NCBI GenBank assembly: GCA_022984795.1
Contig: JALIHJ010000033.1
Span: forward strand, 62,001-126,000
Origin: Fabrea salina
Lineage: Eukaryota > Ciliophora > Heterotrichea > Heterotrichida > Fabreidae
Length of the DNA stretch: 64,000 nt
Direction: 5' to 3'
The notes under the pieces were generated by a model. The model was not told where the DNA came from. It saw nothing but the letters and a program-made list of their open reading frames with translations, and did not search any database. Positions 11,828 to 62,065 of this stretch are shown here, in pieces. Every line of letters begins with the position of its first letter. The stretch's first letter is position 1. Position numbers and translations under genes: made by a program.

Positions 11828-12973
11828 CTAAACTAACTTAACAGAGTTCACGCTGTAAGTATAGTGTGAAAGTACTCTAGTCTGCTCTCCCGTTTCGAGG
11901 TTCCAGAGTCCAATTGAGCGGCCTCTCCCTCCTCCTACTAGGTACCTATCGTCACTTGACAAGTCAACTGAAAGCACTTCACTGGTATACCACTCCAAAG
12001 TTTGAATTTGGAGTCCACAAAAAAGACTCCACACCTTAATAGTTCTATCTGCACATCCAGAAACTACGAACTTATCGTCACTTGAAATGGCCAGTGAATT
12101 TACCTCAGCATCTTCTTCGAGCACTAAAGTTTGTTGGAGAGAAGCACGTTTCCACACCCTAATTGTGTTGTCTGCACTTCCAGACACGACAAACTTGGCT
12201 TTCCTAGAAAAGACCACTGATCTCACACTGCCAGTGTGTGCTCTAAAAGCTTTGCTTTTTCCAGAACTTAGGTTCCATACTCGAACATTTGTATCTGCAC
12301 TTGCAGATGCTGCAAACTTGGCTTTCTTAGAGATTGCTACTGACAAAACACTGTCAAGGTGCTTTTTCAAAACTTGAATTCGCTCTCCAGTAGTTAAACT
12401 CCATACTCCAATACTCCCATTGTAACTCCCGGAAACCAAAAACTTGTCCTTTCTATCAGTAGCTATTGAGGATATTCTACCAGGGTGACTTTCTATCGTT
12501 CTAACTTGCTCTCCTGTGTAGATATTCCACACTCGAATGATGTCATCTGATCCTCCAGAAACTATGAATTCTTTGTTGTGAGACACAGCTACAGATTTCA
12601 CTTGTGAGCTGCACTCTAGCACTCTAGTTACTCCGTTCTTCCAGATTTCGATGGTTTTATTGGAGCTTCCAGACACAATTACTGGTCTAGGAGAACTGGT
12701 GAGTCTGTTGTTGACGTCTAGTGTATGTATGAGTTTGATGAGTCTATGAACGTATTTTTTGGGTGGTTTGACAGCATCTACTTTCCTTTTGAAATTGTCT
12801 ATAGAAGCTTCATGGAAGTTGAATATTTCTTTTTTGAGTCCTTTAAGTTGAGCTAGTTGATGGGAAATTATTTTTTCCAAATTCGATATAGCAAGTTTGC
12901 CTTCCTGAATCACTTCTTGCTTTCTTAGGGAAATCATGCAAAGCATCGTATTCAGGATCAAAGTGTCTCCCAT
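11828..12973 (-). CDS. WD40 protein, short N-terminus lacking the CxC module
   Basis: A 381-aa protein. After a short helical N-terminus (MISLRKQEVIQEGK...) come seven WD40 repeats, typical units reading VVSGSADNTIRVWK. It is the last of four tandem paralogues. Its N-terminus aligns with its neighbours only from the 'GHS..' position onward, so it lacks the CxC-x11-H-x4-H module that the next three genes carry. The stop of the gene at 12989 lies 15 nt before this ATG. A propeller scaffold is inferred; the partner is unknown. Confidence 0.88.
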   Translation of the reverse strand: MGDTLILNTMLCMISLRKQEVIQEGKLAISNLEKIISHQLAQLKGLKKEIFNFHEASIDNFKRKVDAVKPPKKYVHRLIKLIHTLDVNNRLTSSPRPVIVSGSSNKTIEIWKNGVTRVLECSSQVKSVAVSHNKEFIVSGGSDDIIRVWNIYTGEQVRTIESHPGRISSIATDRKDKFLVSGSYNGSIGVWSLTTGERIQVLKKHLDSVLSVAISKKAKFAASASADTNVRVWNLSSGKSKAFRAHTGSVRSVVFSRKAKFVVSGSADNTIRVWKRASLQQTLVLEEDAEVNSLAISSDDKFVVSGCADRTIKVWSLFCGLQIQTLEWYTSEVLSVDLSSDDRYLVGGGRGRSIGLWNLETGEQTRVLSHYTYSVNSVKLV

Positions 12974-12988
12974 TTAAACTATATGAAA

Positions 12989-14266
12989 TTAAATTAAGCT
13001 AACTGAGCACACCCCACCACTACGGTTTTTGTGTTCCCAAACTTTTTCGCCTGTGAAAAGGTTCCAAAGGATAACTGAGTGATCCGAACCTCCTGAAACC
13101 AAGTACCTATTGTCGCTCGACAACTTAACTGAGTTCACTTTCAAAGTATGGCCTTTAAGTTCCTTGATCTTTTCTCCTGATTTAAAGCTCCAAATCGCAA
13201 TGGAACTTTCTGCGCTTCCAGAAACTAAAAAGTCTTCATTGCTTGAGATTGCCACTGAATAAAAAGAACTGCTTCCTTCAAGAACTTTAGTTTGCTCTCC
13301 AGTAGATATGCTCCAAACTCTGATTGTTTTATCACAACTTGCTGAAACCACAAACTCATCAGTACTTGAAACAGCTACTGACCTAATGTCACTGTTGTGT
13401 CCTCTGAATACCTGGGTCTTATGACCTGAAGCAAGACTCCATATAATGATTCTTTGATCTGAGCTTCCAGAAACGATGAACTCGTCTTCGCTAGAGATTG
13501 CTACAGACCAAACTGTATCGGTGTGTTCGCGCAAAACCAATACTTGCTTTTTTGAGGCAATGTTCCACACTCTGACTGTTTTGTCTTCACTTCCAGAAAC
13601 TACAAGTTCGTCGCTTTTGGAAATGTCTACTGAGTGCACTTTATCATCATGAATACCTAGTTCTTGGTTTTCTTTAGTACGCAGGTTCCAGATTCTAACT
13701 GTATGATCGTTGCTTCCAGAAACAAGGAAGTCTTTGCTGTGAGAAATAGCCACAGAGTTGACTGAATTGCTATGTTCATTTAGCACCATAGTTCGGTTCT
13801 TTACCCAGACCCTAATGGCTTTATCAGTGTTTCCAGATACAATAATAGGGTCTGCTGCTGCAATAGGTCCCTCAACACCTAGTTTTTGTATTAACTTATT
13901 GAGCCAGTTAAGTTTCCTTTTAGATGGTGCAACAGTAATTACCTCAGCTTTGATTCTACCAATCGTTTCTGTATCATCATCGCTATCATCGTAGAGTTCA
14001 GTCACTCTTTTCTGGAGTTGACTAAGCTTTGTAAATTGATTACTCATTATCTTCTTGAACTCTTGAATGATGGTTTCACTTGCATCCTTAGTTTGCTGTT
14101 CTTTTTTGGTAATCATATCCTTAATTTCGTCTAGCTTGACTCTTTTGGGAAGGGGACTAATGGAGTGGCCAAGCATAATGTGTCTGTTGAGCTGTATGGC
14201 AGAAACTAGTTCTTCGCAGCTACACTGAGCAACAGGCTTACGCTTCTGAGGAACAAAGTCTTCCAT
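12989..14266 (-). CDS. WD40 protein with N-terminal CxC..H..H module
   Basis: A 425-aa protein. It starts MEDFVPQKRKPVAQ, then the CSC-x11-H-IMLG-H module, a coiled coil (about 45-100) and seven WD40 repeats to the C-terminus (VCSVSLI). Each blade shows the S-V-A/D-I-S ... VSGS ... D.T.RVW pattern. The N-terminus, coiled coil and C-terminal end match the genes at 14278 and 15569, marking a tandem duplication. Only 11 nt separate it from the stop of the upstream gene. Confidence 0.9.
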   Translation of the reverse strand: MEDFVPQKRKPVAQCSCEELVSAIQLNRHIMLGHSISPLPKRVKLDEIKDMITKKEQQTKDASETIIQEFKKIMSNQFTKLSQLQKRVTELYDDSDDDTETIGRIKAEVITVAPSKRKLNWLNKLIQKLGVEGPIAAADPIIVSGNTDKAIRVWVKNRTMVLNEHSNSVNSVAISHSKDFLVSGSNDHTVRIWNLRTKENQELGIHDDKVHSVDISKSDELVVSGSEDKTVRVWNIASKKQVLVLREHTDTVWSVAISSEDEFIVSGSSDQRIIIWSLASGHKTQVFRGHNSDIRSVAVSSTDEFVVSASCDKTIRVWSISTGEQTKVLEGSSSFYSVAISSNEDFLVSGSAESSIAIWSFKSGEKIKELKGHTLKVNSVKLSSDNRYLVSGGSDHSVILWNLFTGEKVWEHKNRSGGVCSVSLI

Positions 14267-14277
14267 TTAACAAATGA

Positions 14278-15551
14278 TTAAATTAAGCTAACCGAACACA
14301 CATTTGCGCCGTGGCTTTTTAGTTTCTGAACTTTTTCGCCTGTGAAAAGGTTCCAAATGATAACTGACCAATCCAAGCTTCCAGAAACCAAGTACTTGCT
14401 GTCGCTTGACAACTTAACTGAGTTCACTTCTGAACTATGGCCTCTAAGAGTTCTAATCTTCTTGCCTGAAGATAGACTCCAGATAATAATGCTGTTTTCT
14501 CCACTTCCAGAAACTAAAAAGTCACCCCCATTTGAAATGTCCACTGAATAAACAGGGCTGCTATGCCCTCTCAACACTCTAGTCTGTTGCCCTGTGGCTA
14601 AGCACCAAACTATGATATTTTTATCATAGCTTCCAGAAACCACAAGCTCATCATTACTCGAAATAGCTACTGATTTAACACTACCACTGTGGCCCTTAAA
14701 TATCTGAATTCTTTCGCCTGAAGCAAGACTCCAAACCATAACTCTTTTGTCAGCACTTCCAGAAACGATGAACTCGTCTTCACTAGAGATTGCTACAGAC
14801 CAAACTCTATCAGTGTGGCCCCGCAAAACCATTGTTTCTTGCCCAGAGTTAACATTCCACACTCTAACTGTTTTGTCTTTACTTCCAGAAACCGCAAGTT
14901 CGTCGCTCTTGGAGATGGCCACTGAGTATACCCAGTCAGTGTGCCCCTCTAAGACTTGGTCCTGCTCATCTGTGGATAAGTTCCATATTCTAACTGTGTT
15001 ATCGTTGCTTCCAGACACAACAAAGTCTTTTTCATAAGAAACAGCCACAGAGTTGACTGAGTCAGTATGCCCTTTAAGCACTCTAGTTTCGTCATCTTTG
15101 CATACTCTGATGGTCTCATCAAGGCTTCCGGATATAACTCCTGGGTGAGCTGCTTTGATAGGTACTTCAAACCCTAGTTTTTGTACTAAGTCTCTGAGTT
15201 CGTTAAAGCTTTTCTTAGATGGGCCGACTGCATTTATTTTGTCTTTAAAAAGGTCAATAGCATTGTTGTCAGCATCGTAGAGGTCATCTGTTTTTTTCTG
15301 AGTGCTTTGAGTTTTTTGAGTTGGTTAGATATTATTTTGTTGACTTCTGAAACAATAGCTTCTTTTAAAGCATTGGTTTCTTCTTCCTTTTTAGAGATCA
15401 TACTCAGTATTTCCTCAACTCTCATCTTTTGAGGAAGTGGGTGAATTGAGTGGCCTTGCACAAGGTGCTTATTCACATCTATAGCACATATCAGTGCTCC
15501 GCAGCTGCACTGGGCAATAGGGCGGCGTTTTTGAGGACGAGACTCTTCCAT
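14278..15551 (-). CDS. WD40 paralogue with CxC..H..H module, one frame break at an A7 run
   Basis: The ATG at 15551 opens MEESRPQKRRPIAQ with CSC-x11-H-LVQG-H and a coiled coil. The frame is lost at 15291-15297 (seven T on the plus strand, seven A in the gene). Beyond it, another frame carries the expected linker (LYDADNNAIDLF...) and seven WD40 repeats down to VCSVSLI and TAA at 14278. One extra A in the run would align it with the paralogue at 12989. Sequencing or assembly error, a young pseudogene, or frameshifting are all possible. The WD40 part shows no further damage, which favours error or a recent change. Confidence 0.75.
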
Positions 15552-15568
15552 TTAAGCTTCAAATAAAT

Positions 15569-16831
15569 CTAAGTAACAATTAAACTAGCTGAAGTTACTT
15601 CTGCTTCAGAGAAATTTAACACTTGAATCTGCTTGTTAGTTTCAAGGTCCCAAACTCTAACTGAGTTGCCTGCAGAAACTAGGTACCTATTGTCGCTTGA
15701 CAGGTTGACTGAAAGCACTGGGCTATCATAATCTCTAAAAACCTGAGTTTGTTTTCCAGAAACTAATTTCCATACTACAACACTGCCATCCGCGCTTCCT
15801 GAAACAACAAACTCGTCATTGCTTGAAATAACTACTGAGTTGACCCAACCAGTATGGAAGTCAATGAGTTGAGTTTGTGTTTCAGAAGCAAGATTCCAAA
15901 CTCTAATTGTTCTGTCTTCACTTCCAGACACAATAAACTTATCTTGACTTGAAACAGCCACTGACTTAACACAGTCTTGATGTCCTTGAAAAACTTTAGT
16001 TTGCTCTCCAGAATCTAAACTCCACACCCAAATAGTTTTGTCCCTGCTTCCAGACACAACGAACTCGTCCTTCTTGGAAATAGCCACACACAAAACACTG
16101 CTTTCGTGGCCTTTAAACACCTGAGTTTCTTTTCTAGAGCGCAAACTCCACACCCGAACAGTTTTGTCTCTGCTTCCAGACACGATAAACTCATCCTTGC
16201 TTGAAATGGCCACAGACCTAATCCAGCCAGTGTGACCGTCTAGAACTAAGCTTTGAAGTCCTGTAAAAAGGTCCCAAACCCTGATTGTTTTGTCGTCGCT
16301 ACTGGAAACTAAAAACTTCTTGTCCTTGGAAACAGCTACTGACCTCACTCCGCCAATGTGGCCTCTGAGTACTTTGAGATGGCCGTCTTCCCAAACCTTA
16401 ACTGTGTTGTCATCAACTCCACAAATGATCTTGGTTTTGGAACTTTCTTTGTCAAGTTGCCGAACTAAGTTTTTGAGTTCTTGTAAGTGTTCTTCTGATC
16501 CCCATGTCCTGGCGATTTCTTGTTTGAACCAGTCAATGGTGGCTGGGTCGGCTTCGTAGAACTCACAGATTCTTTCTTCAAGACTCTTGAGCTCAGTAAG
16601 TTGGTAAGAGGTTATCTTTTCAACTTCTGACATGATAAATGCGCTCATGTTAATGATTTCTTGTTTCTTTTTGGAAATCATAGTGAGTGTTTCCTCTAGT
16701 TTTGTTGTTTCAAGGATGGGCGAAGTGGAGTGGCCTTCCGCAAGATGTTCAGCCAAAGAACTAGCAGTTAGTAAAGTTCCGCAGTCACAACGGGCAATAG
16801 CTCGGCGCTTTTGAGGAATAGAGTCCTCCAT
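15569..16831 (-). CDS. WD40 protein with N-terminal CxC..H..H module
   Basis: A 420-aa protein, the upstream-most of the four-gene tandem array. It starts MEDSIPQKRRAIAR, then CDC-x11-H-LAEG-H, a coiled coil (about 45-130) and seven WD40 repeats. Its end (SASLIVT) differs slightly from its neighbours. The ATG at 16831 faces the divergent gene starting at 16883, leaving 51 nt for both promoters. A repeat-scaffold function is inferred from family knowledge only. Confidence 0.9.
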   Translation of the reverse strand: MEDSIPQKRRAIARCDCGTLLTASSLAEHLAEGHSTSPILETTKLEETLTMISKKKQEIINMSAFIMSEVEKITSYQLTELKSLEERICEFYEADPATIDWFKQEIARTWGSEEHLQELKNLVRQLDKESSKTKIICGVDDNTVKVWEDGHLKVLRGHIGGVRSVAVSKDKKFLVSSSDDKTIRVWDLFTGLQSLVLDGHTGWIRSVAISSKDEFIVSGSRDKTVRVWSLRSRKETQVFKGHESSVLCVAISKKDEFVVSGSRDKTIWVWSLDSGEQTKVFQGHQDCVKSVAVSSQDKFIVSGSEDRTIRVWNLASETQTQLIDFHTGWVNSVVISSNDEFVVSGSADGSVVVWKLVSGKQTQVFRDYDSPVLSVNLSSDNRYLVSAGNSVRVWDLETNKQIQVLNFSEAEVTSASLIVT

Positions 16832-16882
16832 TTAATTGTGGGTTAAAGACTTGCATGCTATGAGGCCATTCATGCTTAGTAA

Positions 16883-17917
16883 ATGGAACCCGGGTTGATT
16901 GTCAGTGGAAGTGATGACGGGAGAATTATAGTTCGAAGAGTCTTCAGAAAAATATTGAATTTTCAAAGAGTAGGGAACCTCAGACACGTTCTGGAGGTGT
17001 TTAAATTCCTGAACTTCAAAGAGGTAGTTGGAGTTGCAAGGGTCAACAAGAAGTTCTATGAAGCTTCTTTCCACCCTGAAGCACCAAAGCCCCATCTCAT
17101 AGAAACCAAAGTTCTAGAAGGCCATAGTTCTGGAGTCTTATCAGTTGCTGTGTCTCCAAAAAAAAGGATACTAGTTTCTGGCAGTTGGGATTCTACCGTT
17201 AGAGTATGGAGTTTAGCTACTGGAGAAGAGATCAAAGAACTGCAGGGTCATCGTTGTGCAGTGTACTCTGTAGCTATCTCTAGCAGGGGTGAATTCTTAG
17301 TTTCAGGAAGTTATGACAACACACTTAGGGTATGGAGTTTAGCTTACCAAAAAGAAACTTTAGTGCTTGAAGGCCATAAAGACACTGTTAGTTCAGTAGC
17401 AATTTCAACCAAGGACTTATTCTTTGTCTCTGGTAGTTACGACTGTACAGTTAGAGTGTGGAGTATAACTGGTAAAGAACTTAGAGTCCTTAAAGGGCAT
17501 ACTGGCTACGTTAGGTCAGTGGCCATTCCTAAGAGCGACTCGTATGTTGTCTCAGGAAGTAGTGACTCCACTGTTAGGGTGTGGAGTCTAGCTTCTGGAG
17601 AAGCAATTAAAGTACTCCAAGGACATAAAGGAATTGTGTTTTCAGTTGCTATTTCAAGTGACGAGCAGTTTGTAGTATCAGGAAGTGCAGACAAAACTAT
17701 TAGAGTGTGGAGTCTTTCTTCTGGAGAAACTACTCAAGTTCTAGAAGGACACACTGGAGAAGTGCTTTCAGTCAATTTATTCAGTGACGACAAGCACTTG
17801 GTGTCTGGAAGTGGTTTTGGAGACAAGTCAGTGAGAGTTTGGAGCCTCTCTACAGGTAAACAAACTCGACTACTACAAGATCATACTGATGACGTATGGT
17901 CAGTTAAGATAATTTAA
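16883..17917 (+). CDS. F-box-like plus WD40 protein
   Basis: A 344-aa protein. Residues about 25-65 (HVLEVFKFLNFKEVVGVARVNKKFYEAS) look like an F-box. Seven WD40 repeats follow, beginning VLEGHSSGVLSVAVS, with highly regular blades. F-box/WD40 proteins usually act as substrate receptors of SCF ubiquitin ligases; whether this one binds Skp1 is inference. It lacks the CxC..H..H module of the divergent array next to it, yet its blades are very similar to theirs, suggesting shared origin or exchange. The next gene starts 10 nt after its stop. Confidence 0.85.
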   Translation: MEPGLIVSGSDDGRIIVRRVFRKILNFQRVGNLRHVLEVFKFLNFKEVVGVARVNKKFYEASFHPEAPKPHLIETKVLEGHSSGVLSVAVSPKKRILVSGSWDSTVRVWSLATGEEIKELQGHRCAVYSVAISSRGEFLVSGSYDNTLRVWSLAYQKETLVLEGHKDTVSSVAISTKDLFFVSGSYDCTVRVWSITGKELRVLKGHTGYVRSVAIPKSDSYVVSGSSDSTVRVWSLASGEAIKVLQGHKGIVFSVAISSDEQFVVSGSADKTIRVWSLSSGETTQVLEGHTGEVLSVNLFSDDKHLVSGSGFGDKSVRVWSLSTGKQTRLLQDHTDDVWSVKII

Positions 17918-17927
17918 CTAAAAATAA

Positions 17928-19058
17928 ATGGAGAACATTTGTAACAAGCACTGCTCCAGAGACTGCAGGGACTGCCAAGAAACCTTTTCAAGTGTGTCAC
18001 AACTAGCCTTAGAAAACCAAAACTTCAAAAAAGAAATCAAAAACACCAACCAACGCATTGAACAACTCCAACAAAAACTTACCCACCTCAAAAAGCAGTA
18101 CTCAGAACTAAGCAGAACTCAAAGCATCCAACTGCCTCTAGCCTTTTTAAAAACTAAGTCTCCAAAAGACTACTTCATGAACCTAAAACTCCCCAGTAAC
18201 TTTTTTTCACTTCTAACAGAGCCAGAATACTCACTAAGTTTACTTTTCCAAACAGGAACTTTTGACTCAGAAAGCCTTTGCAGCTGTGGAAGAGTCATGA
18301 GCATCAAGTGGAAAGAAGGAATGGACGCAAGTTTTCAGTGTGTTTGTGGCAAAACCAAACCTTTGCTTGAAGAAAGCTTTTGGAAAGGACTTGAAATGGA
18401 GCAAAGCAAGATACTTGCTTACTTGTTTCTGTGGACAATGGACCTTAGACCGAGAGAAATAGCTAACTTCTTGGACATATCTCAAAACCAAAGCCGAAAG
18501 GTTTCTGAAAAGCTTAGAAAAGTAGTAGGAATGCACTTTTTAGACACTTTGCCTTGTTTTTCTGGGATTGTAGAAATTGACGAAAGTTGTTTCAGAAGCA
18601 AAGGCAAAAGTGACCAGAAGTGGGTGTTTGGACTTTACGAAAGATCAAGTAAGTTAGTCTACATGGAAGTAGTGCCTAAAAGAACAGCTGCACAGTTACT
18701 ACCTATAATCACTAAAAGGTGCGAACCAGGCACTACAATCATATCTGACCAATGGGCAGCTTACAACCAACTAGAAAAAACAGGCTTCAAACACCACACA
18801 GTAAACCACTCCAAGTACTTTTTGCACCCTGAGAACCCAGAGATCCACACACAACACATCGAAGTTTCCTGGTGCTGGGCCAAATACCACATTAAAAAGA
18901 AAAACAGACAAATGACCCACCTTCAAGAGCACCTTCACGAGTACTGCTGGAAAACCCAGTTCCGAAACAACTCTAAACTCCACGAACTAGGAAACACCAT
19001 GAAGAGCCTGTTCGAAGTCCTCAAAAACTACTCCAAGAGCAGCTTAAGTAAGTGTTAA
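17928..19058 (+). CDS. Merlin/ISXO2-like DDE transposase, probably host-retained
   Basis: A 376-aa protein. A Cys-rich N-terminus (CNKHCSRDCRDC) and a coiled coil precede a zinc-ribbon-like pair (CSCG at 118-121, CVCG at 138-141), a helix-turn-helix-like stretch (PREIANFLDISQNQSRKVSEKL) and the catalytic core. The acidic triad fits D218 (EIDES), D274 (ISDQWAAY) and E312 (HIEVSW), as in IS1016/Merlin and ISXO2-like transposases. The frame is intact. It sits 10 nt after one gene and 24 nt before the next, which leaves no room for terminal inverted repeats. That argues for a domesticated gene rather than a mobile copy, perhaps in DNA elimination or as a retained remnant; this is inference. Confidence 0.85.
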   Translation: MENICNKHCSRDCRDCQETFSSVSQLALENQNFKKEIKNTNQRIEQLQQKLTHLKKQYSELSRTQSIQLPLAFLKTKSPKDYFMNLKLPSNFFSLLTEPEYSLSLLFQTGTFDSESLCSCGRVMSIKWKEGMDASFQCVCGKTKPLLEESFWKGLEMEQSKILAYLFLWTMDLRPREIANFLDISQNQSRKVSEKLRKVVGMHFLDTLPCFSGIVEIDESCFRSKGKSDQKWVFGLYERSSKLVYMEVVPKRTAAQLLPIITKRCEPGTTIISDQWAAYNQLEKTGFKHHTVNHSKYFLHPENPEIHTQHIEVSWCWAKYHIKKKNRQMTHLQEHLHEYCWKTQFRNNSKLHELGNTMKSLFEVLKNYSKSSLSKC

Positions 19059-21083: not shown

Positions 21084-23096
21084 ATGAGTTGTGACTGCTC
21101 TCAAAAATTACTAGAGTGCTTTTGTAGAGGCAGCTCTACTGAGCTTTGTGCTCACCAAGTGCTTCACCACGGACCTTCTAAGTGTGGAGAAAGGCCTTCG
21201 CAACTCTTGAGGCTTCCAGAAGGCTATGAAAAGCTGAAGTACATTGGTAAAGGCAAGTCTTCCAGGTGCTACTTAGCAAAGTACCCGCCTAACCGCAGAC
21301 TAGTAGTTAAGGTGTCAGAGACTTCTCAGCAGCAAAAAGTTATAGAAAGAGCTAAGGCAGAAGTTGACTTGTACAAAAGCTTGTCGCACGTAAACATAGT
21401 AAAGCTTATAGACATTACTTCTAACCCTGACAGTCACTTGTGCATAGTAACTAACTACACACCTGGCGGGAACTTAAAAGACAAACTAAAAACTAAAAGA
21501 ACTGAAACAGATGTAGTTAACTGGTGTTACCAAATATCAGGCGCACTACAGTACCTGCACAACCAGTCTATTCCTGTAGTAGGTTTTGGTTCTAGCAACG
21601 TGCTATTCGGTCAGGCTGGCAACGTTAAGATATCAGTGTTTAACTTAAACTTGTTAACCAGAGACAGTGATTACTTAGGCCGAGTCAAGCAAGAAAGCGC
21701 GTACTTTAAAAAACTAAGCTCAGTAATTCGCAAAATAAACACTGACAAAGAGTCAAGAAAGTTCATTTCACAAGAAATCAGAAAGTTTTGTTCAGAACTC
21801 GACAGTGAAGTCTTTGATAGCATACTAAGCATCAGAAAAAGACTTAAAAGTCTCAAAGAAAACTTACTTGACCACGAAGAAGTCGTTAACTGTCTTAAAA
21901 AGCTTAAAAAAGACTGTGAGAACAGTACCAAAGTCATTGTGAAGCGGTCTGAGTCTCTCATTAAAAGAATAAAAACTATCCGTGACAGCCAGTTGAACTC
22001 AGTTAGCCAAGTAGAAAGCCAACTAGAAGCTTTTATACAAAGTGACTTTTCTTCAAGTGAGTCTGCTTTTAGAAAGCACTTCAAAAACATTCCTTCTGAA
22101 AAAGCAGCTGTCCAGAACTACGTGGCAAGCAAAATCAAACTTCCAGAACTACCTGACATCTTTGAGCTCGTCAACCAAGAAGAGATAGCCAAAGAACCAG
22201 ACCTCTCTGAACTAGCTGGCAAGCTGCTGCTTACGTGCAGTGAAGACAGAACAATTGGAATCTGGGACCTCAAAACTACTCAAAGAATTCAGTTAATATC
22301 TGAAAACCTTTCAGCAATAACTGCAATTGCAGTCTCTAAGGACAGGCAGTCAATAGTTTCTGCCAGCAAAGACAAAACACTTGGAGTTTGGGATACTAAA
22401 ACAGGTAGCAAGTTACTAACTATATTAACAGGCAGCAACTGCTGGATAAACTCTGTGGACATTCACGGAGAAACTATAGTGGCAGGGCTCTGGAACTCAA
22501 CTGTAGTGGCTTTCAACTCAAAAGTAGGGAAAAAAACTATGACTCTCAGAGGACACTTTGAGTCGGTTAACTGTGTGAAGATATCTGAGTCTGGGTCGTT
22601 TGTAGCTTCTGGAGGCAAAGACGCTTCAATACAAATCTGGGACCTTAGCAATGGTACTCACACCAGGGCACTTAAAGGCCACAAAGCTTCTGTTAATTCA
22701 GTTAGAATATCCAAAACTGAGAACTTTTTAGTTTCAGGCAGTAGTGACAACACTATCGGAGTCTGGGAACTCTACGAAGGAACTCAGATATACAGCTTAG
22801 AAGGCCACATTTCAAACGTGTTGTCAGTAATAATTTTCGATAACTCTGAGCTTATAGCCTCTGCAAGCAAAGACTCAATTAGAGTCTGGAACTTGAAGTC
22901 GGGAGAACTAGTTAAGGAATTAATTAGGATTTCAGGTTCAATTACTTGCATTGCGGCTACAGAAGATATGAAGTACTTGGTTTCTTCAGATGTAGAGGGT
23001 TTTTGCAAGCTAACTGATCTTAGGTCGTTTTCAACTATTAAAACCCTTAACCTACACTCAGAGTGCATAAACGAAGTAGAAATCATAGGTTCTTAA
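21084..23096 (+). CDS. Pseudokinase-coiled coil-WD40 fusion
   Basis: A 670-aa protein. The first 40 residues are Cys/His-rich (CDCSQ ... CFC ... CAHQVLHHG). Residues 48-190 are a protein-kinase N-lobe and part of the C-lobe: Gly loop GKGKSSRCYLAK and the ATP-anchoring Lys in LVVKV (K76). The HRD motif is VVG (165-167), the catalytic-loop Lys is Gly169 and DFG is replaced by VFN (185-187), so phosphotransfer is very unlikely. The C-lobe stops early and is followed by a coiled coil (about 205-375) and about seven WD40 blades (about 385-665). It presumably acts as a scaffold. The WD40 part is more diverged than the array at 11.8-17.9 kb. Confidence 0.88.
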   Translation: MSCDCSQKLLECFCRGSSTELCAHQVLHHGPSKCGERPSQLLRLPEGYEKLKYIGKGKSSRCYLAKYPPNRRLVVKVSETSQQQKVIERAKAEVDLYKSLSHVNIVKLIDITSNPDSHLCIVTNYTPGGNLKDKLKTKRTETDVVNWCYQISGALQYLHNQSIPVVGFGSSNVLFGQAGNVKISVFNLNLLTRDSDYLGRVKQESAYFKKLSSVIRKINTDKESRKFISQEIRKFCSELDSEVFDSILSIRKRLKSLKENLLDHEEVVNCLKKLKKDCENSTKVIVKRSESLIKRIKTIRDSQLNSVSQVESQLEAFIQSDFSSSESAFRKHFKNIPSEKAAVQNYVASKIKLPELPDIFELVNQEEIAKEPDLSELAGKLLLTCSEDRTIGIWDLKTTQRIQLISENLSAITAIAVSKDRQSIVSASKDKTLGVWDTKTGSKLLTILTGSNCWINSVDIHGETIVAGLWNSTVVAFNSKVGKKTMTLRGHFESVNCVKISESGSFVASGGKDASIQIWDLSNGTHTRALKGHKASVNSVRISKTENFLVSGSSDNTIGVWELYEGTQIYSLEGHISNVLSVIIFDNSELIASASKDSIRVWNLKSGELVKELIRISGSITCIAATEDMKYLVSSDVEGFCKLTDLRSFSTIKTLNLHSECINEVEIIGS

Positions 23097-48874: not shown

Positions 48875-48954
48875 GACAGTTTGGCCGAGTGGTCTAAGGC
48901 GGTAGCTTCAGGCGCTATTCCGAAAGGGCGTGGGTTCGAATCCCACAGCTGTCA
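48875..48954 (+). tRNA. tRNA-Leu (anticodon CAG)
   Basis: An 80-nt class II tRNA without an intron. Acceptor GACAGTT pairs with AGCTGTC (one T-G pair), with discriminator A at 48954. The D arm has GGCCGAGTGGTCTAAGGC. The anticodon loop TTCAGGC puts CAG at 48909-48911. A long variable arm follows, then GTGGGTTCGAATCCCAC as T arm. The body is close to eukaryotic tRNA-Leu. CCA is not encoded. Confidence 0.96.
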
Positions 48955-48959
48955 TTTTT
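48955..48959 (+). terminator. Pol III T5 terminator overlapping a convergent stop codon
   Basis: Five T directly follow the tRNA. The last two are part of the TTA that forms the minus-strand gene's stop at 48958-48960. Confidence 0.8.
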
Positions 48960-51144
48960 ACCTTATAAATCTTTTAAATATTCGGTGAGGAGCACCAATG
49001 GAAGACTCTTTTTTCTTGACAAAGTCTCTGGAAGCAGGTCTGTCTTCACTTCTCTCGTAAGACTTTATCAGAAAGGTGTTAAAAGAGTTGAATTCCCTTT
49101 CTTTTTTAAAGTTAACTTTGAACCCTCCTGAAACTTGCGTGACTTTAATTTGGGGGCTGGCGTTTCTATGGTCTTGGAAAGTGGTTTCCATGTGGATGGT
49201 TGGCTTTATAGGAGTTAGGTTGCGTGTTTGGGGCTTCTTTGAGTACTGGAGTCTGTAAAACTGAGAGACTTTAGGAGGTTTGCGACTGGAGTCTTCAGAG
49301 AAATCTCTGGGCTTTTCAAGAACTTTGGGACGTGAAAGAGGTGTAGTAGACTTCGCAGAGTTCTGGGCGTTGGCTTTTAGTGTGGAAAATTCAGGCGAGC
49401 TGACTTTTTCAAAGGGCTTTATGATCTTTTTGAAGTACTTAGAAGTGGGGGTTTGGTTTTTGTTGGTTTTAGGCTTGACTTCTATTACTTCTTCTTCAGA
49501 GTTTGAGTTTTCTGATCCTCCACTGTCAGAGTCAGATTCGTCTACTATTTGAGTGAAGTCAAAGCCTTTGAGTTCCTTACTTAAGTCTACAGACTTCTCA
49601 CTATACTCTAAGTCTTCCTCAAAGTCCTTTTCAAAGTCGCTTTCTTGTGTAACTAAGTTTTCTTTTTTCATCTGGGCAACTGCAGTTTTTTTGTCACAGT
49701 TGAAAAAGCTAATCACAAACTGCAGTCTGTTACGGAAGATTCTAGGGTTGACGAAGCAGACAAGTAGTTTACAAAGATCCCTGCCTACAGACATGTAGTG
49801 GTGTTTCTGCATGTGGACGTTTTGAGGAGTTTCTTCAGGCTCAGGTTTTCTATTTTCAAGTGCAGAGTGGTGTGAGGGTCCTAAAAAAGAAGCTTCAAGT
49901 GTATAACTGCACAAAATGCCTAGTTGCTTGTAAATAACAATCCGAGCAGTGCTTTCTTTACTTTTTTCCATCCGGAACTTACAGTCATTGAAGTTCAGGA
50001 TTCTGTTTTTGTGCGCAAGCAGCACAGGAATCATCTTGGTTATTATGTTGCTTCTGACGTTTTCGACGAAATTGCCTTTTTGTCTGCACCCGTAAAAGAA
50101 AACATTCTTTTTGATGGAGTGACCGTGCATGTCACAGAACATAACTATTTCTCTTTCCTCGCCCAGAACTTGCGTGACCTTTTTAGTGTAGTATATAGTG
50201 GGATGCAGAACTTTGTTGGGGTTGATCCACCTCCGGTTAAGGTCTATGCCGAGGAGGGAGGTTCTATAGTTACCGTAAACCACTCCGTCTGGGTTGAGCA
50301 TAGGGACTATTTTAAATACAAAGTTCTTTCTTAAGTATCTGGCCATCCGAGTCTCTCCTAACAAAAACTCGATAGCGCCCTTCATCATGAGTGAACCTAC
50401 AGTTTCTCCTGGATGCACTCGAGCTGTAAGTACAACTCCTTTTTTCTTTTTGTGTTCTTCTTTTTTGCGTTCTTTCATTCTGATCATGCGGCGGCCTCCC
50501 CCAGACTTTTCTAGCTTAATTGCTTCTTGCGCAGCAGTGTAGTAAGTGGACATCTGAGAAGTTATGGTTAAGATCGGACAGGAGTTTCCGCCTAAGGTGT
50601 AGCATAAGTTGTCCACTCTGCAGATGTTTTTTTGGGAAGAGTAACTCTGGAGTTGCTGGATAAGTTCTGAGTAGGTGTAGGGGTAGCTGTGTGCGAAGTA
50701 AACTGTGTCCTCTGCATGCTCGAAAGTGTAACTAAAACTAAGTGTGTACAAACTCTTTTCGCCTTCAGAGTAGGAGTTTTTGAAGTAGCTTACTTCGCTG
50801 CAAGTCCTTTCCCAGGTTTTTCCAGCGTCTTGAGCTTTCTTGGTTGAGTACACTAGAGGCTTGAGGCCTTTGTTGTAGAGACTCTCGAACTTTAGCAAGT
50901 TTATAATACTAAACTTAACTGTATGGCCAGCTTTGTAGTTAGTGACTGAAAAGTAGTACCACTGGGTGTTGCCTTGAGTGTTAGTGTCATTTTCTAGAAT
51001 TAAGTTGTACTCGTCCTCGCCTAATTTAACAGCCTTTCTCAAGTTTCCGCTTTCAAAACTCGAGTTGAATCTTAGAACGCCTTCGCTAGGAATGATGAGT
51101 GTGTAAGTTTTGGCAAAAGACTTTTCCTTTGAGTACTCTTGCAT
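48958..51144 (-). CDS. Cytosolic carboxypeptidase (CCP/AGBL, M14)
   Basis: A 728-aa protein. The N-terminal CCP domain (about 20-160; NDTNTQGNTQWYYFSVTNY) is followed by the M14 catalytic domain. Zinc ligands fit H244 and E247 (RVHPGETVGS) and the His in CDMHGHSIKKNVFFYGC. The substrate loop has GIDLNRRWINP and the catalytic Glu is in YTLEASFLG. CCPs remove glutamates from tubulin side chains or C-termini in cilia and cortical microtubules. The C-terminal about 230 residues are acidic then basic and disordered. Which CCP subtype it is cannot be settled by eye. Confidence 0.93.
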   Translation of the reverse strand: MQEYSKEKSFAKTYTLIIPSEGVLRFNSSFESGNLRKAVKLGEDEYNLILENDTNTQGNTQWYYFSVTNYKAGHTVKFSIINLLKFESLYNKGLKPLVYSTKKAQDAGKTWERTCSEVSYFKNSYSEGEKSLYTLSFSYTFEHAEDTVYFAHSYPYTYSELIQQLQSYSSQKNICRVDNLCYTLGGNSCPILTITSQMSTYYTAAQEAIKLEKSGGGRRMIRMKERKKEEHKKKKGVVLTARVHPGETVGSLMMKGAIEFLLGETRMARYLRKNFVFKIVPMLNPDGVVYGNYRTSLLGIDLNRRWINPNKVLHPTIYYTKKVTQVLGEEREIVMFCDMHGHSIKKNVFFYGCRQKGNFVENVRSNIITKMIPVLLAHKNRILNFNDCKFRMEKSKESTARIVIYKQLGILCSYTLEASFLGPSHHSALENRKPEPEETPQNVHMQKHHYMSVGRDLCKLLVCFVNPRIFRNRLQFVISFFNCDKKTAVAQMKKENLVTQESDFEKDFEEDLEYSEKSVDLSKELKGFDFTQIVDESDSDSGGSENSNSEEEVIEVKPKTNKNQTPTSKYFKKIIKPFEKVSSPEFSTLKANAQNSAKSTTPLSRPKVLEKPRDFSEDSSRKPPKVSQFYRLQYSKKPQTRNLTPIKPTIHMETTFQDHRNASPQIKVTQVSGGFKVNFKKEREFNSFNTFLIKSYERSEDRPASRDFVKKKESSIGAPHRIFKRFIR

Positions 51145-51509: not shown

Positions 51510-52217
51510 TTAACTCTGAAAATCAGTAACTATGGGCAGAGAGTCGACGTTGGTGTCTAGTTTTGAAAGAGTCTCCTTAAAGGTGTCTTCAAACCACTCA
51601 CGGTCTAAGTTTAGGAAGTCCCTAAGCATGCCTTCGTTGCCTTCAGAAGCCTCTGGCAATGTGGGTTCCCATTTGAACTGGACTGGCTCTAGTCTGGCTG
51701 AGTACTCTTGTTTCTTCGTGTCTGCGTCTTCTGGCTCTATTGGGTTGGGTTGCACAGACAAGTCAATGAAGTTGTTGGTGATGTCGTCTACTATTTTGTC
51801 AAGTTTAGACTTGAGTTCTTTGGAAATGTGGTCAAGGTGAGGAGAAGCCACTTTAGCTGCTGGTTGGGCAGTTTGCAAGGTTGAAGACAAAGGCACTTTG
51901 TCAAGTGGCGAAAAGAATTCTTTAAAGTATGAGTTTGAAGAGATGTCTGGAATGTTCACTAGGGCTGAAAGGTACTCTTGGAGTTGATTCTTGCGTGACT
52001 CTATGAAAGCTGGGTTTTTGTTGCCAAATAGTTTTTTGGGTGGAAAGTGGGGAAGGTTTTTGAGGGTTCGTTTGAGTTGTTCGTGGAGACCCCGCAGAGA
52101 AGAGTATCTTCTTTGGAACTTAAAGGAGTCCCCTGTTTTAATGTCTTTGACTACTATGGTGTACTCAACGTGGGACTTTGAGGTGTCGTATTCTGTAATA
52201 GTAATAGACATAGACAT
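51510..52217 (-). CDS. PX-domain protein (sorting-nexin-like)
   Basis: A 235-aa protein. The PX domain is at about 5-115: the phosphoinositide-binding RRYSSLRGLHEQL and LPHFPPKKLFGN, then RKNQLQEYLSALVNIPDI. A disordered acidic linker and a short C-terminal helical part follow; there is no BAR domain. PX domains bind PI3P on endosomes, so an endosomal role is inferred. Its ATG is 28 nt from the divergent F-box gene. Confidence 0.9.
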   Translation of the reverse strand: MSMSITITEYDTSKSHVEYTIVVKDIKTGDSFKFQRRYSSLRGLHEQLKRTLKNLPHFPPKKLFGNKNPAFIESRKNQLQEYLSALVNIPDISSNSYFKEFFSPLDKVPLSSTLQTAQPAAKVASPHLDHISKELKSKLDKIVDDITNNFIDLSVQPNPIEPEDADTKKQEYSARLEPVQFKWEPTLPEASEGNEGMLRDFLNLDREWFEDTFKETLSKLDTNVDSLPIVTDFQS

Positions 52218-52245
52218 TTTTATAGTTCATTGTAATAAATAACTG

Positions 52246-52899
52246 ATGGAAACCCTCAGAGTTTCGATCTTAGCCGAAAGAATCCTGCCCTACTTAAGCA
52301 CTCAAGACATGCAAAGTGTGTGCTTGGTTTCTAAAGCTTGGAATTCTAAATTCAGAGAAGCTTTAAGTCTCTACTACTCGTTAATGAATAAAAGAATACA
52401 AGCGTTAGAAAAAGAACAGCTCAAAAGAAAAGAGTTCTTTGCTAAGCACCAAAAAGAAAGTGAGTCAGACCGAATGCAACTAGAATCCATCGAAAAGCGT
52501 TCTCTTACTGAGTTAAGGGCCTTTAGCAAACCTCCACAAGCTGTGAAGCTAATTATTGAATTAGTCACTGTTTTGGTGACTGGGAAAAAGTGCACTGAGT
52601 GGTCAAAGACTCTTTTGAGAACCGAGCACCGTCTTTTGGACAAGCTTAGTAACTTCGATATCACCCAAGCCAACCCTAAAGCTGTAAGGGAGGTTCGGAA
52701 AGTCCTTAAGCAAAGTGACCTAACCGAACAAGCAGTGCGACGTTTCAGTTTAGCATGCAGTCACATTTTTGCTTGGCTTGATTCTACGAGTTACCTATGC
52801 GAAATTTTCCACTACGCCAACCAATTCAACCAGAAGATTGAGGACTTGCGTACTAAAAAGTCTGAAATAGGCAGGCTTCTAAAGCTATCTAACCCTTAA
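52246..52899 (+). CDS. F-box protein with dynein-stalk/MTBD-like C-terminus
   Basis: A 217-aa protein. Residues 8-42 are an F-box (ILAERILPYLSTQDMQSVCL, VSKAW). A basic helix (45-85) leads to a segment that follows the dynein heavy-chain stalk in order. TELRAFSKPPQAVKLIIELV parallels the end of coiled-coil 1 (KSLKNPPEAVRLVMEAV). WSKTLLRTEHRLLDKLSNFD parallels the microtubule-binding domain. AVRRFSLACSHIFAWLDS parallels SACEGLCKWVRAM. IFHYANQFNQKIEDL sits where coiled-coil 2 begins. The dynein comparison is from memory of the family. There is no AAA motor. Confidence 0.8.
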   Translation: METLRVSILAERILPYLSTQDMQSVCLVSKAWNSKFREALSLYYSLMNKRIQALEKEQLKRKEFFAKHQKESESDRMQLESIEKRSLTELRAFSKPPQAVKLIIELVTVLVTGKKCTEWSKTLLRTEHRLLDKLSNFDITQANPKAVREVRKVLKQSDLTEQAVRRFSLACSHIFAWLDSTSYLCEIFHYANQFNQKIEDLRTKKSEIGRLLKLSNP

Positions 52900-53225
52900 T
52901 TGCTTAGTGTTGTTCTTGGACTATTTAGAAAAGAACATATTGAGTCGTAGGCTTTCCAGTAAATTCTAGAGCTAATCTAAGCCCAATTGCTAGCTTAATT
53001 AACTTAATAATGAGTTGCAAGCATGAATGAAGTTATTACTGCTAAGACTAACTCTAGCTTTATGTGGCTTGGGTTCAATGTAATTCGGTCAATATTCCGG
53101 TTTTTTCGGTTAGCCCTTTAAAACCTTTATTCACCACTTATTTGATAAACTTTTTGTTCAAAAAGACATTTAAGTCGAATATAACTAACTTACTGAATAA
53201 CTGATATGGCTTCACAATGTTATAA
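52900..53225. other. 326-nt intergenic region
   Basis: This lies between two plus-strand genes. It is AT-rich, and I see no tRNA, hairpin of note or ORF. It presumably holds the PUF gene promoter. Confidence 0.4.
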
Positions 53226-58472: not shown

Positions 58473-60542
58473 ATGGAAAACTCGCCCTCAACGCCTTTAT
58501 TCCAGAGTCCAAAAAGCATAGATTCCCGGGGCTACAGTCCAATAGTTCAACTACTCAAATCGCCAGAGCCTCCTAAGAACTCAGCTTCTCATTTCATGCA
58601 CTACGTCTATGAAGTTCTTTCAAATCTTAGCACTCACTCAAAGGCCTACTTTAAGTTTGAGGAGTTCACTCCAGCCCTAGCTAGCTTTGCAAACTCATGG
58701 TTAGAGTCTGCAGGGACTGGAAGTTTTTGCTTAACTTTTAACACTTCAAACGATCAGTACTGTACTGACTGCAGTGAACTCAGAGCTGAAATAGACAGAA
58801 TAGAGTCTATTCACATGGCTGAAATTGAAAACTTTTACAAAAACCTACAGGAAAAGAACCTAGAGATTCTTAACTTAAAAAAAGAAATCCAAAAACTCCA
58901 AAACAGGGTTAAAGTAGGTAGTTACGAAAGAATATACTCTAAGTACATATCCAAAATAAGAACTGAAATCCAAAACTTACTAGACATTGCACTTCCTCAA
59001 GTAGGCGAGGAAGTAGAACTAGACCTGCACAACTTTTTAAAAGCTTTAAGAAGGAACCTATCCCAACTGCCTAACAAGTTCATAAGAAAACTAGGCTACA
59101 AACCCCAAGGAAAAAACATTGCTAACTGCAACCTTTTGGACATCCAAACAACTATAGACAGACTTAACGAAGTCCACAAACAAGTAACTGAAACCTTTGA
59201 GCAAAACTTCAGAGTGAACATTGGGAATTTTGAACTGACCCTAGTAGTAACAAGGGACTCTGCCAAAGAAAGCTTAGTGAAGAGGAGAAGAAGAAGACTG
59301 CTCACAAAGAAGAACTTCACTGAACAAGACCAGCTCCAAGACTTTCTAGACTCCTTTTCAAAAAACATGAAAGCAGCTTACTATAACGAACTCTCGCAAA
59401 TGGAAAACATGTTGTGTGGGTTGCACGAAGAAATTGAAGAGTCGAAGTATCTTCAAGGGAACCATAAAGGGGTTTCTTTCGAAGTCAACAAAGAACTTTA
59501 CAGAGAAATCAGAGCTAAAGAAGAAGAAATTTCTGTTCTGACTCACAACCTTAACAAAGCCCAGTTAAAAACAGAGTCACTTGTTAAGAGACTCAAAGAA
59601 GAAGAAGAAAAGAGTTACAAAGTTTCTGAAGAAAACCAAAGGATCAAACAAAACCTCAACCTGTTTAAAAAAGAGGTTGGTGAAGTCTTTGAAACTCAAG
59701 ACATAAAAACCACAGACACCAGATTCAGAAAACTAACTCCTAGACTGCTAACTAAGAAAGTCATAGAAGACTCCAACGCAATCACCAGAAAGGTCCAAAG
59801 GAGCTTAGCTTGTATAGAAAAAGAATGGATTTACAGAGAAGAAAAGTCCTTGATCAAGTCCCAAAGAGACCGAACTCCAACACCAACTCCTCTAGTATCC
59901 TTGAACTCCTCACTAACTAGAGGCTTTAAGCTTTCAAGGTCAGTGTCTCCTATTTCAGACGTTCCAAACCTTTCCTTCAAGTCAATCTCTTGGATATCCC
60001 AAGACAGGTCACAAAGAACTCAGAGACAAGAAGAAGTAGACTACTTGCGGAAAGAACTTGACTCTTGTTTAGAAGAAAAATCTAAACTAGAACACAGACT
60101 CAAAGAACTCGAAGAACAAGGAGCTTCCACTAAACTCGAAAACATCAAAGCTAAAGAAAAAGAAGCCTCCAAACTCTTAGAAATGAGACTTGAGGAGTAC
60201 AACAAAGTCCTAGAACTCAAAAACCACCACCAAAAACAATCTGAAGAAATTAAAAATCAACAAAAAAGACTTTTGGAACAAAAACACCAACTAGAAAGCA
60301 AGTCTGAGTACCTACAGCAAGACTTAGAAAACTTAAAAAAAGTTGAGTCGAGTATTAGCAAAATGCTAAGTGGCAACGCAAAAGGCTGTTTAGAGTTGCT
60401 GAGAAACCAAAGAAAAGAACTCTGCAAAGAAAGAGACCAACTAGCTTCTGTTAAGTTTGAATACCAATTAAAGATTCAAAAACTCAAAGAAAGTTTCCAG
60501 GAGTTCTTGGATGTCACAGTTAATAATGGAGTTAATAAATGA
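58473..60542 (+). CDS. Long coiled-coil protein
   Basis: A 689-aa protein. N-terminal folded-looking part to about 90; coiled coils at about 95-150, 350-420 and 520-670 (EQKHQLESKSEYLQQDLENL); a basic patch near 270 (KRRRRRLLTKK); a Ser/Thr-rich gap at about 460-520. No family is recognised. The final TGA overlaps the ATG of the next gene, giving the four-base sequence ATGA. Confidence 0.87.
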   Translation: MENSPSTPLFQSPKSIDSRGYSPIVQLLKSPEPPKNSASHFMHYVYEVLSNLSTHSKAYFKFEEFTPALASFANSWLESAGTGSFCLTFNTSNDQYCTDCSELRAEIDRIESIHMAEIENFYKNLQEKNLEILNLKKEIQKLQNRVKVGSYERIYSKYISKIRTEIQNLLDIALPQVGEEVELDLHNFLKALRRNLSQLPNKFIRKLGYKPQGKNIANCNLLDIQTTIDRLNEVHKQVTETFEQNFRVNIGNFELTLVVTRDSAKESLVKRRRRRLLTKKNFTEQDQLQDFLDSFSKNMKAAYYNELSQMENMLCGLHEEIEESKYLQGNHKGVSFEVNKELYREIRAKEEEISVLTHNLNKAQLKTESLVKRLKEEEEKSYKVSEENQRIKQNLNLFKKEVGEVFETQDIKTTDTRFRKLTPRLLTKKVIEDSNAITRKVQRSLACIEKEWIYREEKSLIKSQRDRTPTPTPLVSLNSSLTRGFKLSRSVSPISDVPNLSFKSISWISQDRSQRTQRQEEVDYLRKELDSCLEEKSKLEHRLKELEEQGASTKLENIKAKEKEASKLLEMRLEEYNKVLELKNHHQKQSEEIKNQQKRLLEQKHQLESKSEYLQQDLENLKKVESSISKMLSGNAKGCLELLRNQRKELCKERDQLASVKFEYQLKIQKLKESFQEFLDVTVNNGVNK

Positions 60543-62065
60543 TAGGTCAGGACTTAAAAAAGCTATTACTAGTGGTCTTATGCTTAAACATAAGCTTACT
60601 GTACCTATACTTTCCCACGGACACAAGCACCTTTTTAAGAGAGTACGTAGTTTTAGCTCCTGCCTACGAAGACTCGCCTTTTTCTCACTGGGAAGAGTCC
60701 CAACCCTGGAAAACCTACTTAGACTCGCTTAACTTAAACAAAGACCACCAAAACATACTCAACGACCCTGATTACTGCGAAAAGGTTAAAGAGTACCAGA
60801 GAGCCGCTAAATTGAGTTTCGACTCTAGAGGACTGCCTCTTAAAAAAAGCAAAGTAGTGTACTCTGACTACTCGCCAGGACTCTTAGTTAAGAAGATCCT
60901 TAAGAACTACACCACGCCTGTACTTCTAAACCACTTCGGAGGCATGAGCAAAGGAAAGACTCCTTATGACAACTTGCCTCAGTCAGTAAACATGTTTTTC
61001 GAACTCCAGCCTTCCTGGCACATCTACCACCAAATAGGCGTCAACTTTTTGTGTGAAGGGCAGATTTACAACCACATTCCAGGGAACTCTTGGCTTAACT
61101 ACAAAGACGTAACTGCTAACACCATGAGGGATTACTCCAAGTACTACGTTGGAAGGGAGTACTGCTTTGACCCCTGGAAAGTAATGCCTTACAGTTTAGA
61201 CCTAACAATAGAAAGCGACTGCAAAGAGTTCACTAGTGAACTTGAAGAGAACCTTAACTCCAAAGAAATCAAGTGGATGACTAAAAAAAGCAGGTTTTCT
61301 CACAACGGACAAGGAGTCTTTATAGTTGACCAGAAAAAAGCAAAAGAGCTGCTTAAAAACAAGTGCCCCTGGGAAGAAAAGTGGCAAGCCCAAAGGTACA
61401 TACCTAACCCTATGCTTATCATGAACCGGAAGTTCGACTTTAGAGCTTACATGTTTATTGCAAGCATGGATCCTTTGATGATCCTTTACCACGACGGATT
61501 TGTTAAAATTAGTTTGGTTGAGTACGAAGCTGAGTCTTCAGACTTAGCTTCACACCTAACCAACACCAAAATTGCTGAAAAAAGCCTCAAGAACAAAAAC
61601 ATAACTTCTGAAGAAACTAAAGCTTTGTTGGAAGACCAAAGTTGGAGTTTCGAACACTTCGAAAGTCACATGTTGAGCCAGAACTTGATTTCTGAGAACT
61701 GGATGGACAACACTTTAAGGAAGCACATTAAAAAAGTAATGTTTCACTTGGTAAGGATGAACTTAGACAAACTGCTTAGACACCCACGCGTGTTTGAGTT
61801 GTTTGGACTGGACTTTTTGATAGACACAGACTTAAACATTTGGTACATCGAAACTAACTTAACGCCAAGCATCGGAAGTACTTCAGAAGAAAAAAAGAAA
61901 GTAAACACTAAGTTAGTGACTGACATCATTGACTTAGAGTACTCATTGTTATACGGAGCTGACTTTGACTCTTTGTTGAAAAAAACTAATTTTGAGTGGG
62001 TTTTTGATGGAAGGAAAGTAGGAGTTCAAAGGTACCACGGGCTTCTGGAAGAAGACTGTGTTTAA
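60539..62065 (+). CDS. TTLL-family tubulin ligase with N-terminal membrane anchor
   Basis: A 508-aa protein. An N-terminal hydrophobic helix (LLLVVLCLNISLLYLYF) is followed by a TTL domain (about 115-480): KWMTKKSRFSHNGQGVFIV, WQAQRYIPNPMLIMNRKFDF with RAYMFI, and FELFGLDFLIDTDLNIWYIE with TNLTPSI. The Mg-binding E-x-N of the last motif is kept. TTLLs add Tyr, Glu or Gly to tubulin or other proteins; most are cytosolic, so the anchor is unusual. TAA codons directly precede the ATG in frame, so the start cannot lie upstream without splicing. Confidence 0.88.
   Translation: MIGQDLKKLLLVVLCLNISLLYLYFPTDTSTFLREYVVLAPAYEDSPFSHWEESQPWKTYLDSLNLNKDHQNILNDPDYCEKVKEYQRAAKLSFDSRGLPLKKSKVVYSDYSPGLLVKKILKNYTTPVLLNHFGGMSKGKTPYDNLPQSVNMFFELQPSWHIYHQIGVNFLCEGQIYNHIPGNSWLNYKDVTANTMRDYSKYYVGREYCFDPWKVMPYSLDLTIESDCKEFTSELEENLNSKEIKWMTKKSRFSHNGQGVFIVDQKKAKELLKNKCPWEEKWQAQRYIPNPMLIMNRKFDFRAYMFIASMDPLMILYHDGFVKISLVEYEAESSDLASHLTNTKIAEKSLKNKNITSEETKALLEDQSWSFEHFESHMLSQNLISENWMDNTLRKHIKKVMFHLVRMNLDKLLRHPRVFELFGLDFLIDTDLNIWYIETNLTPSIGSTSEEKKKVNTKLVTDIIDLEYSLLYGADFDSLLKKTNFEWVFDGRKVGVQRYHGLLEEDCV

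Follow-up and report, generated by a model that had tools for sequence, protein, structure and literature searches.

The locus described here lies in a 64,000-nt window, the term used below for the whole stretch of DNA that was analysed, and comprises a short gene whose product joins an F-box-like N-terminus to a region resembling the stalk and tip of dynein, together with its two close neighbours:

52246..52899, + strand: whole gene, 217 aa, single-exon reading, with a TAA stop at 52897-52899
52267..52377, + strand: F-box-like region, residues 8-44 (Pfam match 12-44 to PF12937, under the curated cut-off)
52384..52497, + strand: CC1-like outgoing arm of the stalk hairpin, residues 47-84 (PF12777 match from residue 58)
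52495..52518, + strand: H1 stretch with K84, E89 and R91, which align with mouse K3299, E3304 and R3306
52498..52785, + strand: tip resembling the dynein microtubule-binding domain (MTBD), residues 85-180 (PF12777, PDB matches and dynein alignment)
52741..52743, + strand: R166 (H6), which aligns with mouse R3382, an alpha-tubulin contact
52786..52896, + strand: CC2-like returning arm, residues 181-217 (PF12777 match stops at residue 200)
51510-52217, divergent: PX-domain gene, lying 28 bp upstream of the F-box/MTBD gene and head to head with it
53226 onwards: PUF gene, beginning 326 bp downstream of the F-box/MTBD gene

The frame runs from ATG to TAA with exactly the coordinates and the 217 aa of the original prediction, and another in-frame TAA (at 52240) stands one codon ahead of the ATG. 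In codon usage it reaches +0.218 bits per codon, the remaining five frames being negative; training was done with 14 other window genes, which also served as the scored comparison genes and range from 0.207 to 0.477, so that the F-box/MTBD gene falls at the low end. Short introns together with standard stop codons are a mark of heterotrich ciliates, and on that basis the gene would appear to come from a ciliate of this type: introns of 15 nt with GT..AG borders, many of the form GTAA....TTAG, do occur in the window (for example at 32013 and 32650 on the + strand, and at 57008 and 24652 on the - strand). Scanning both strands yielded 48 candidate joins, of which some overlap and 11 measure 15 nt, against none of the 20 candidates from a control on one reversed strand; the stops of 23 listed ORFs are TAA (15), TAG (5) and TGA (3). 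Around the F-box/MTBD gene (52151-53000), 14 GT..AG stretches of 14-17 bases were listed, none with the GTAA..TTAG form, and excision of the nearest intron candidate (52512-52526) would delete part of the dynein-conserved segment; this listing revealed no convincing intron of the 15-nt type within 52246-52899.

The arrangement of the neighbours has two consequences. Being head to head and 28 bp apart, the PX and F-box/MTBD genes may share a promoter; and with the PX gene so close upstream and the PUF gene 326 bp downstream, there is no room for an AAA ring. The absence of AAA modules that had been noted from the sequence is indeed borne out: searched against Pfam up to E 10 (with filters that remove most matches above 0.1), the 217-aa ORF matches the MT model and two F-box models only, and its flanks are occupied by the PX and PUF genes.

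At the level of sequence, homology of the arm and tip to the dynein stalk is not in doubt. Pfam PF12777 (dynein stalk) matches residues 58-200 over profile positions 77-225 with an E-value of 7.9e-7, and the whole-protein score of 28.9 bits passes the curated cut-off of 24. Residues 86-200 alone, for which the original prediction had anticipated a significant profile hit, are significant by E-value (2.2e-4) but their 20.8 bits fall under the Pfam threshold. The reversed protein and three shuffles (tested out of six generated) gave neither an MT/dynein nor an F-box match in Pfam at E<=1. In a phmmer search of the PDB, the best matches were Dictyostelium cytoplasmic dynein (1.1e-9; entries 27pt/3vkh, which we take to be this protein), a cytoplasmic dynein-1 chimera (2e-9) and DNAH6 (3.6e-9), cytoplasmic and axonemal dyneins thus scoring alike. 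The whole protein has 56 PDB matches at E<=10, the sole non-dynein among them being Cdc4, while residues 86-200 match 42 distinct PDB sequences at E<=0.1, of which 41 can be recognised as dyneins by their name or a length above 4000 aa, the last one, a short construct (6rzb_C, 'MKIAA0325 protein'), presumably being dynein as well. Finally, a profile built from three dyneins, with the window protein left out, retrieved a single one of the 1284 six-frame pieces of the window, namely this ORF, with an E-value of 5.6e-18 that is flattering since these three dyneins were the best matches of the protein; this test is not independent of the phmmer search, and the Pfam model is. The likeness to the dynein stalk tip, first proposed by eye, is therefore well founded in PF12777, the PDB matches and the dynein profile, and the blocks on which it had been based (PP-x-AVKL, WSKTLL..LLDKLSNFD and SLACSHIFAWLD) are all present as described; the observation as a whole is confirmed, with the F-box as its weaker part.

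With the dynein stalk and MTBD (PF12777), the window protein shares the order of distal stalk and tip (arm, tip, returning arm), the K-E-R...R contacts, the KPP hinge and the lack of a flap insert, which is absent from the tip by comparison with three aligned dyneins. Unlike a dynein heavy chain, it lacks the AAA ring, the linker, the tail and the proximal stalk, and counts 217 aa instead of more than 4000. A gapless extension of the alignment by hand places residues 47-217 opposite about mouse 3262-3433, residues beyond 200 lying outside the PF12777 match; if this extension holds, the returning arm would reach back to the F-box. The SRS-MTBD construct used to decorate microtubules covers nearly the same stretch, 3260-3427 (PMC6629372, excerpt).

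How much of the tubulin-binding surface is kept? The contacts given for yeast dynein in the available part of PMC7042235 are K3117, E3122 and R3124 in H1, R3152 and R3159 in H3, and R3201 in H6. Their H1 and H6 equivalents in mouse, as mapped in the present analysis, are K3299, E3304, R3306 and R3382 (sources, each seen in part: PMC7042235 and PMC6629372 for the H1 contacts, PMC7042235 and PMC4987762 for R3382). All four are identical in the window protein, against an overall identity to mouse dynein of 30/97 aligned positions; such agreement would have a chance of 0.008 if sites were equivalent, an assumption that fails because dyneins tend to conserve contact sites, and with two H3 sites added, 4/6 contacts are kept (chance about 0.07). 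None of the basic residues of H3, for which the same excerpt of PMC7042235 names R3334 and R3342, is identical in either alignment: R3337/R3342 stand opposite a gap and T in the HMMER-based alignment and opposite K and E in the MAFFT one, and position 3334 (K by our own count) is S in both. According to the portion of PMC7042235 at hand, these H3 residues are not conserved in Dictyostelium dynein, where basic residues nearby can serve.

Three further positions set the window protein apart from dynein. Mouse K3298 is replaced by the acidic E83, a site at which a change in yeast (K3116, which corresponds to mouse K3298 by our mapping) did not much alter affinity, as stated in the accessible text of PMC7042235. 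Conversely, the acidic E3289 and E3378 are replaced by the neutral S74 and Q162, E being found in 3/3 aligned dyneins at the E3378 position and in 2/3 at the E3289 position. Mutation of E3289 and E3378 to lysine is reported to give longer runs and slower movement of mouse dynein (PMC4987762, in part), which could suggest a stronger grip; this reading of S74 and Q162 is uncertain, since the salt bridges invoked for these two residues were not seen in the simulations of the same partial source. The substitutions point both ways and affinity is thus not predictable from them. Within the tip, basic residues outnumber acidic ones (17 K+R vs 10 D+E).

Structure prediction is compatible with this picture without establishing the fold. 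AlphaFold2 models made without an alignment have a mean pLDDT of 49.4 for the full protein and 52.7 for residues 72-196; the outgoing arm is modelled as helical with a break at 68-72, and the N-terminal helices are followed in the full model by helices at 73-94, 98-112, 118-126, 128-135, 144-154, 161-180 and 183-215, an order that, in models of low confidence, is consistent with an arm, the tip helices and a returning arm. Foldseek ranks a dynein stalk first for both models (3wuq and 5ayh, with E-values of 0.17 and 1.4 and TM-scores of at most 0.25), closely followed in both searches by BAR domains and other helical proteins, and neither low-confidence model has a match at E<=0.001. The antiparallel coil with six helices that had been expected is thus matched in helix order and top-ranking neighbour, but not by a confident fold. 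Heptad periodicity gives a mixed result: the moment of CC2 is reached by 71/5000 shuffles at 102.9 degrees and by 905/5000 at 100 degrees, that of H6/CC2 by 217/5000 and 4978/5000, respectively, and the pattern of CC1 is no better than that of shuffles (1729/5000 and 2376/5000).

Towards the N-terminus, the family assignment is less firm. The usual F-box motif starts with Leu-Pro, and here the F-box-like Pfam match covers the profile from position 11 onwards, with the Leu-Pro start seemingly missing. PF12937 (F-box-like) matches the whole protein with an E-value of 9.7e-5 and 22.5 bits, and residues 1-46 alone with 6.1e-5 and 23.1 bits, for a cut-off of 24.3; PF00646 (F-box) gives 16.1 and 17.2 bits, respectively, for a cut-off of 20.5. 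Residues 1-55 taken alone have no PDB match at E<=10, and Cdc4, itself an F-box protein, is a weak whole-protein match (E 1.1). Since the PF12937 match lies just under the Pfam cut-off, the F-box is probable rather than certain: E-values of 6e-5 to 1e-4 speak for homology of the N-terminus to F-boxes, membership of the family is not settled, and there is some doubt whether Skp1 binding would be retained. The F-box originally placed at residues 8-42 is thereby recovered as an F-box-like match, albeit below threshold.

What could such a protein do? The most economical explanation is that an F-box protein took over a dynein tip as its recognition arm. We tentatively favour an F-box protein, probably an SCF adaptor, whose ring-less dynein tip would hold on to microtubules passively. 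Skp1 and Cul1 would be engaged through the F-box, the stalk hairpin would keep the tip at a distance from the ligase, and the tip would bind the tubulin groove used by dynein. As there is no AAA ring, and hence no ATP-driven release or helix sliding, binding would be passive and the arm would serve as a microtubule tether, bringing an SCF ligase to its target proteins on microtubules of the cytoplasm, cortex or cilia, and competing with dynein for its binding site. A more specific version, in which the tip is the microtubule arm of an SCF ligase, the loss of acidic grip-limiting residues makes binding steady and ubiquitination is localised on the site of dynein, is possible but somewhat more doubtful. 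An SCF adaptor directed to microtubules or axonemes, or a decoy of the dynein tip, had already been envisaged on first inspection; that interpretation as a whole is supported in part, for the stalk-tip homology and the missing ring, while the predicted fold is not confident and the F-box stays below threshold.

Several known systems offer points of comparison. An F-box placed N-terminal to its partner domain is the usual order in F-box proteins, and the window protein resembles SCF substrate-recognition proteins in having an F-box-like N-terminus followed by another domain; it differs from them in that its F-box is below the Pfam cut-off and its partner domain is a dynein tip, and we know of no dynein tip in any F-box protein. 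An architectural parallel is found in the SRS-MTBD chimeras (3ERR, 3J1T; PMC6629372, excerpt), whose PDB entries also matched the window protein by sequence in the phmmer search: they share the tip, short arms of roughly equal length and an unrelated base, but were engineered on seryl-tRNA synthetase, whereas the base here would be a probable F-box, with one end of the arm free.

A somewhat unlikely alternative is that of a structural microtubule-associated protein rather than a ligase adaptor, the F-box-like part docking in an assembly of the cilium or cortex, with the tip as a passive cross-link or brake on a neighbouring microtubule, in the manner proposed for DRC6. FBXL13 is an F-box/LRR protein and the LRR defines DRC6, while the window protein shows no leucine-rich repeat family in Pfam to E 10, which speaks against this possibility; none of its 56 PDB matches bears the name DRC6. 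On the other hand, F-box proteins do occur in axonemes, as exemplified by Tetrahymena DRC6C, described as a component of the nexin-dynein regulatory complex (N-DRC) with an F-box domain, and a braking role has been suggested for the contact that DRC6 makes with the adjacent doublet (PMC10504270, in part). DRC6/FBXL13 and the window protein would have in common an F-box, probable in the latter, and a proposed contact with a neighbouring doublet or microtubule. A weak F-box, apparently devoid of Leu-Pro, would also fit a lost ligase function.

It is less likely still that the tip, although of dynein descent, has lost microtubule binding and now recognises another protein, for example a MAP, a regulator of dynein or some unrelated substrate. 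The identity of only 30/97 to mouse, the replacement of K3298 by E83 and the disappearance of the H3 basic contacts would agree with this, but the equivalents of K3299, E3304, R3306 and R3382 are all retained, and the H3 residues are reportedly no better conserved in Dictyostelium dynein (PMC7042235, excerpt). Quite improbable, in turn, is a spurious F-box, in which case the protein would be a detached dynein stalk tip, preceded by a short helical stretch and competing for dynein sites or acting as a decoy: the missed curated cut-off and the lack of PDB matches for residues 1-55 would agree with it, while the E-value of 6.1e-5 for residues 1-46 and the failure of reversed and shuffled sequences to match any F-box do not. 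Lastly, a chance ORF or a remnant of a dynein heavy chain gene, left as a pseudogene or through misassembly, is very improbable, and the heavy-chain fragment was rejected: although no ortholog was found in the viral and prokaryote contigs and the codon score is at the low end, the frame is intact and coding-like in composition, it starts right after an in-frame stop, no second tip-like piece exists among the 1284 six-frame pieces by a profile that spans the tip and not the AAA modules, and the gaps to the neighbouring genes measure 28 and 326 bp.

To our knowledge, the dynein tip occurs solely within the giant motor and in engineered chimeras, and its combination with an F-box is, provisionally, new. 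Nothing on an F-box joined with a dynein stalk or PF12777 appeared in the literature searched, a corpus that excludes most subscription papers, and no title among the dynein-tip matches listed describes a ring-less tip attached to an F-box; PMC10105768, on cilia, refers to the dynein MTBD but was, as far as its available part goes, not relevant. Pattern matches in viral contigs (1) and prokaryote contigs (39) did not pass tblastn, which says little about ciliates. Should the favoured reading of a ligase adaptor with a microtubule arm hold, a natural stand-alone tip would separate what microtubule binding requires from features of the motor cycle, and its fusion to an F-box would offer a direct route by which ubiquitin ligases could be brought to microtubules, a point of interest in ciliates and other cells that are rich in stable microtubules.

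In the window as a whole, the Pfam search covered 15 of the 37 ORFs of at least 200 aa, and for 4 of these 15 the best 25 families were considered. WD40-repeat ORFs cluster on the two strands, together with a kinase-WD40 ORF, over 11828-17917 and 21084-23096 (Pfam on 4 of them); in one of these ORFs (16883-17917), a stretch that looks F-box-like by eye precedes the WD40 repeats, no F-box being among the best 25 of 48 families. An IS1595/ISXO2-like DDE transposase domain (17928-19058, E 1.6e-19) lies between protein-coding genes, and a tRNA-Leu (CAG) gene is found at 48875-48954. Two further genes, one cytosolic-carboxypeptidase-like (48958-51144) and one of the tubulin-tyrosine-ligase family (60539-62065), may encode tubulin modifiers.
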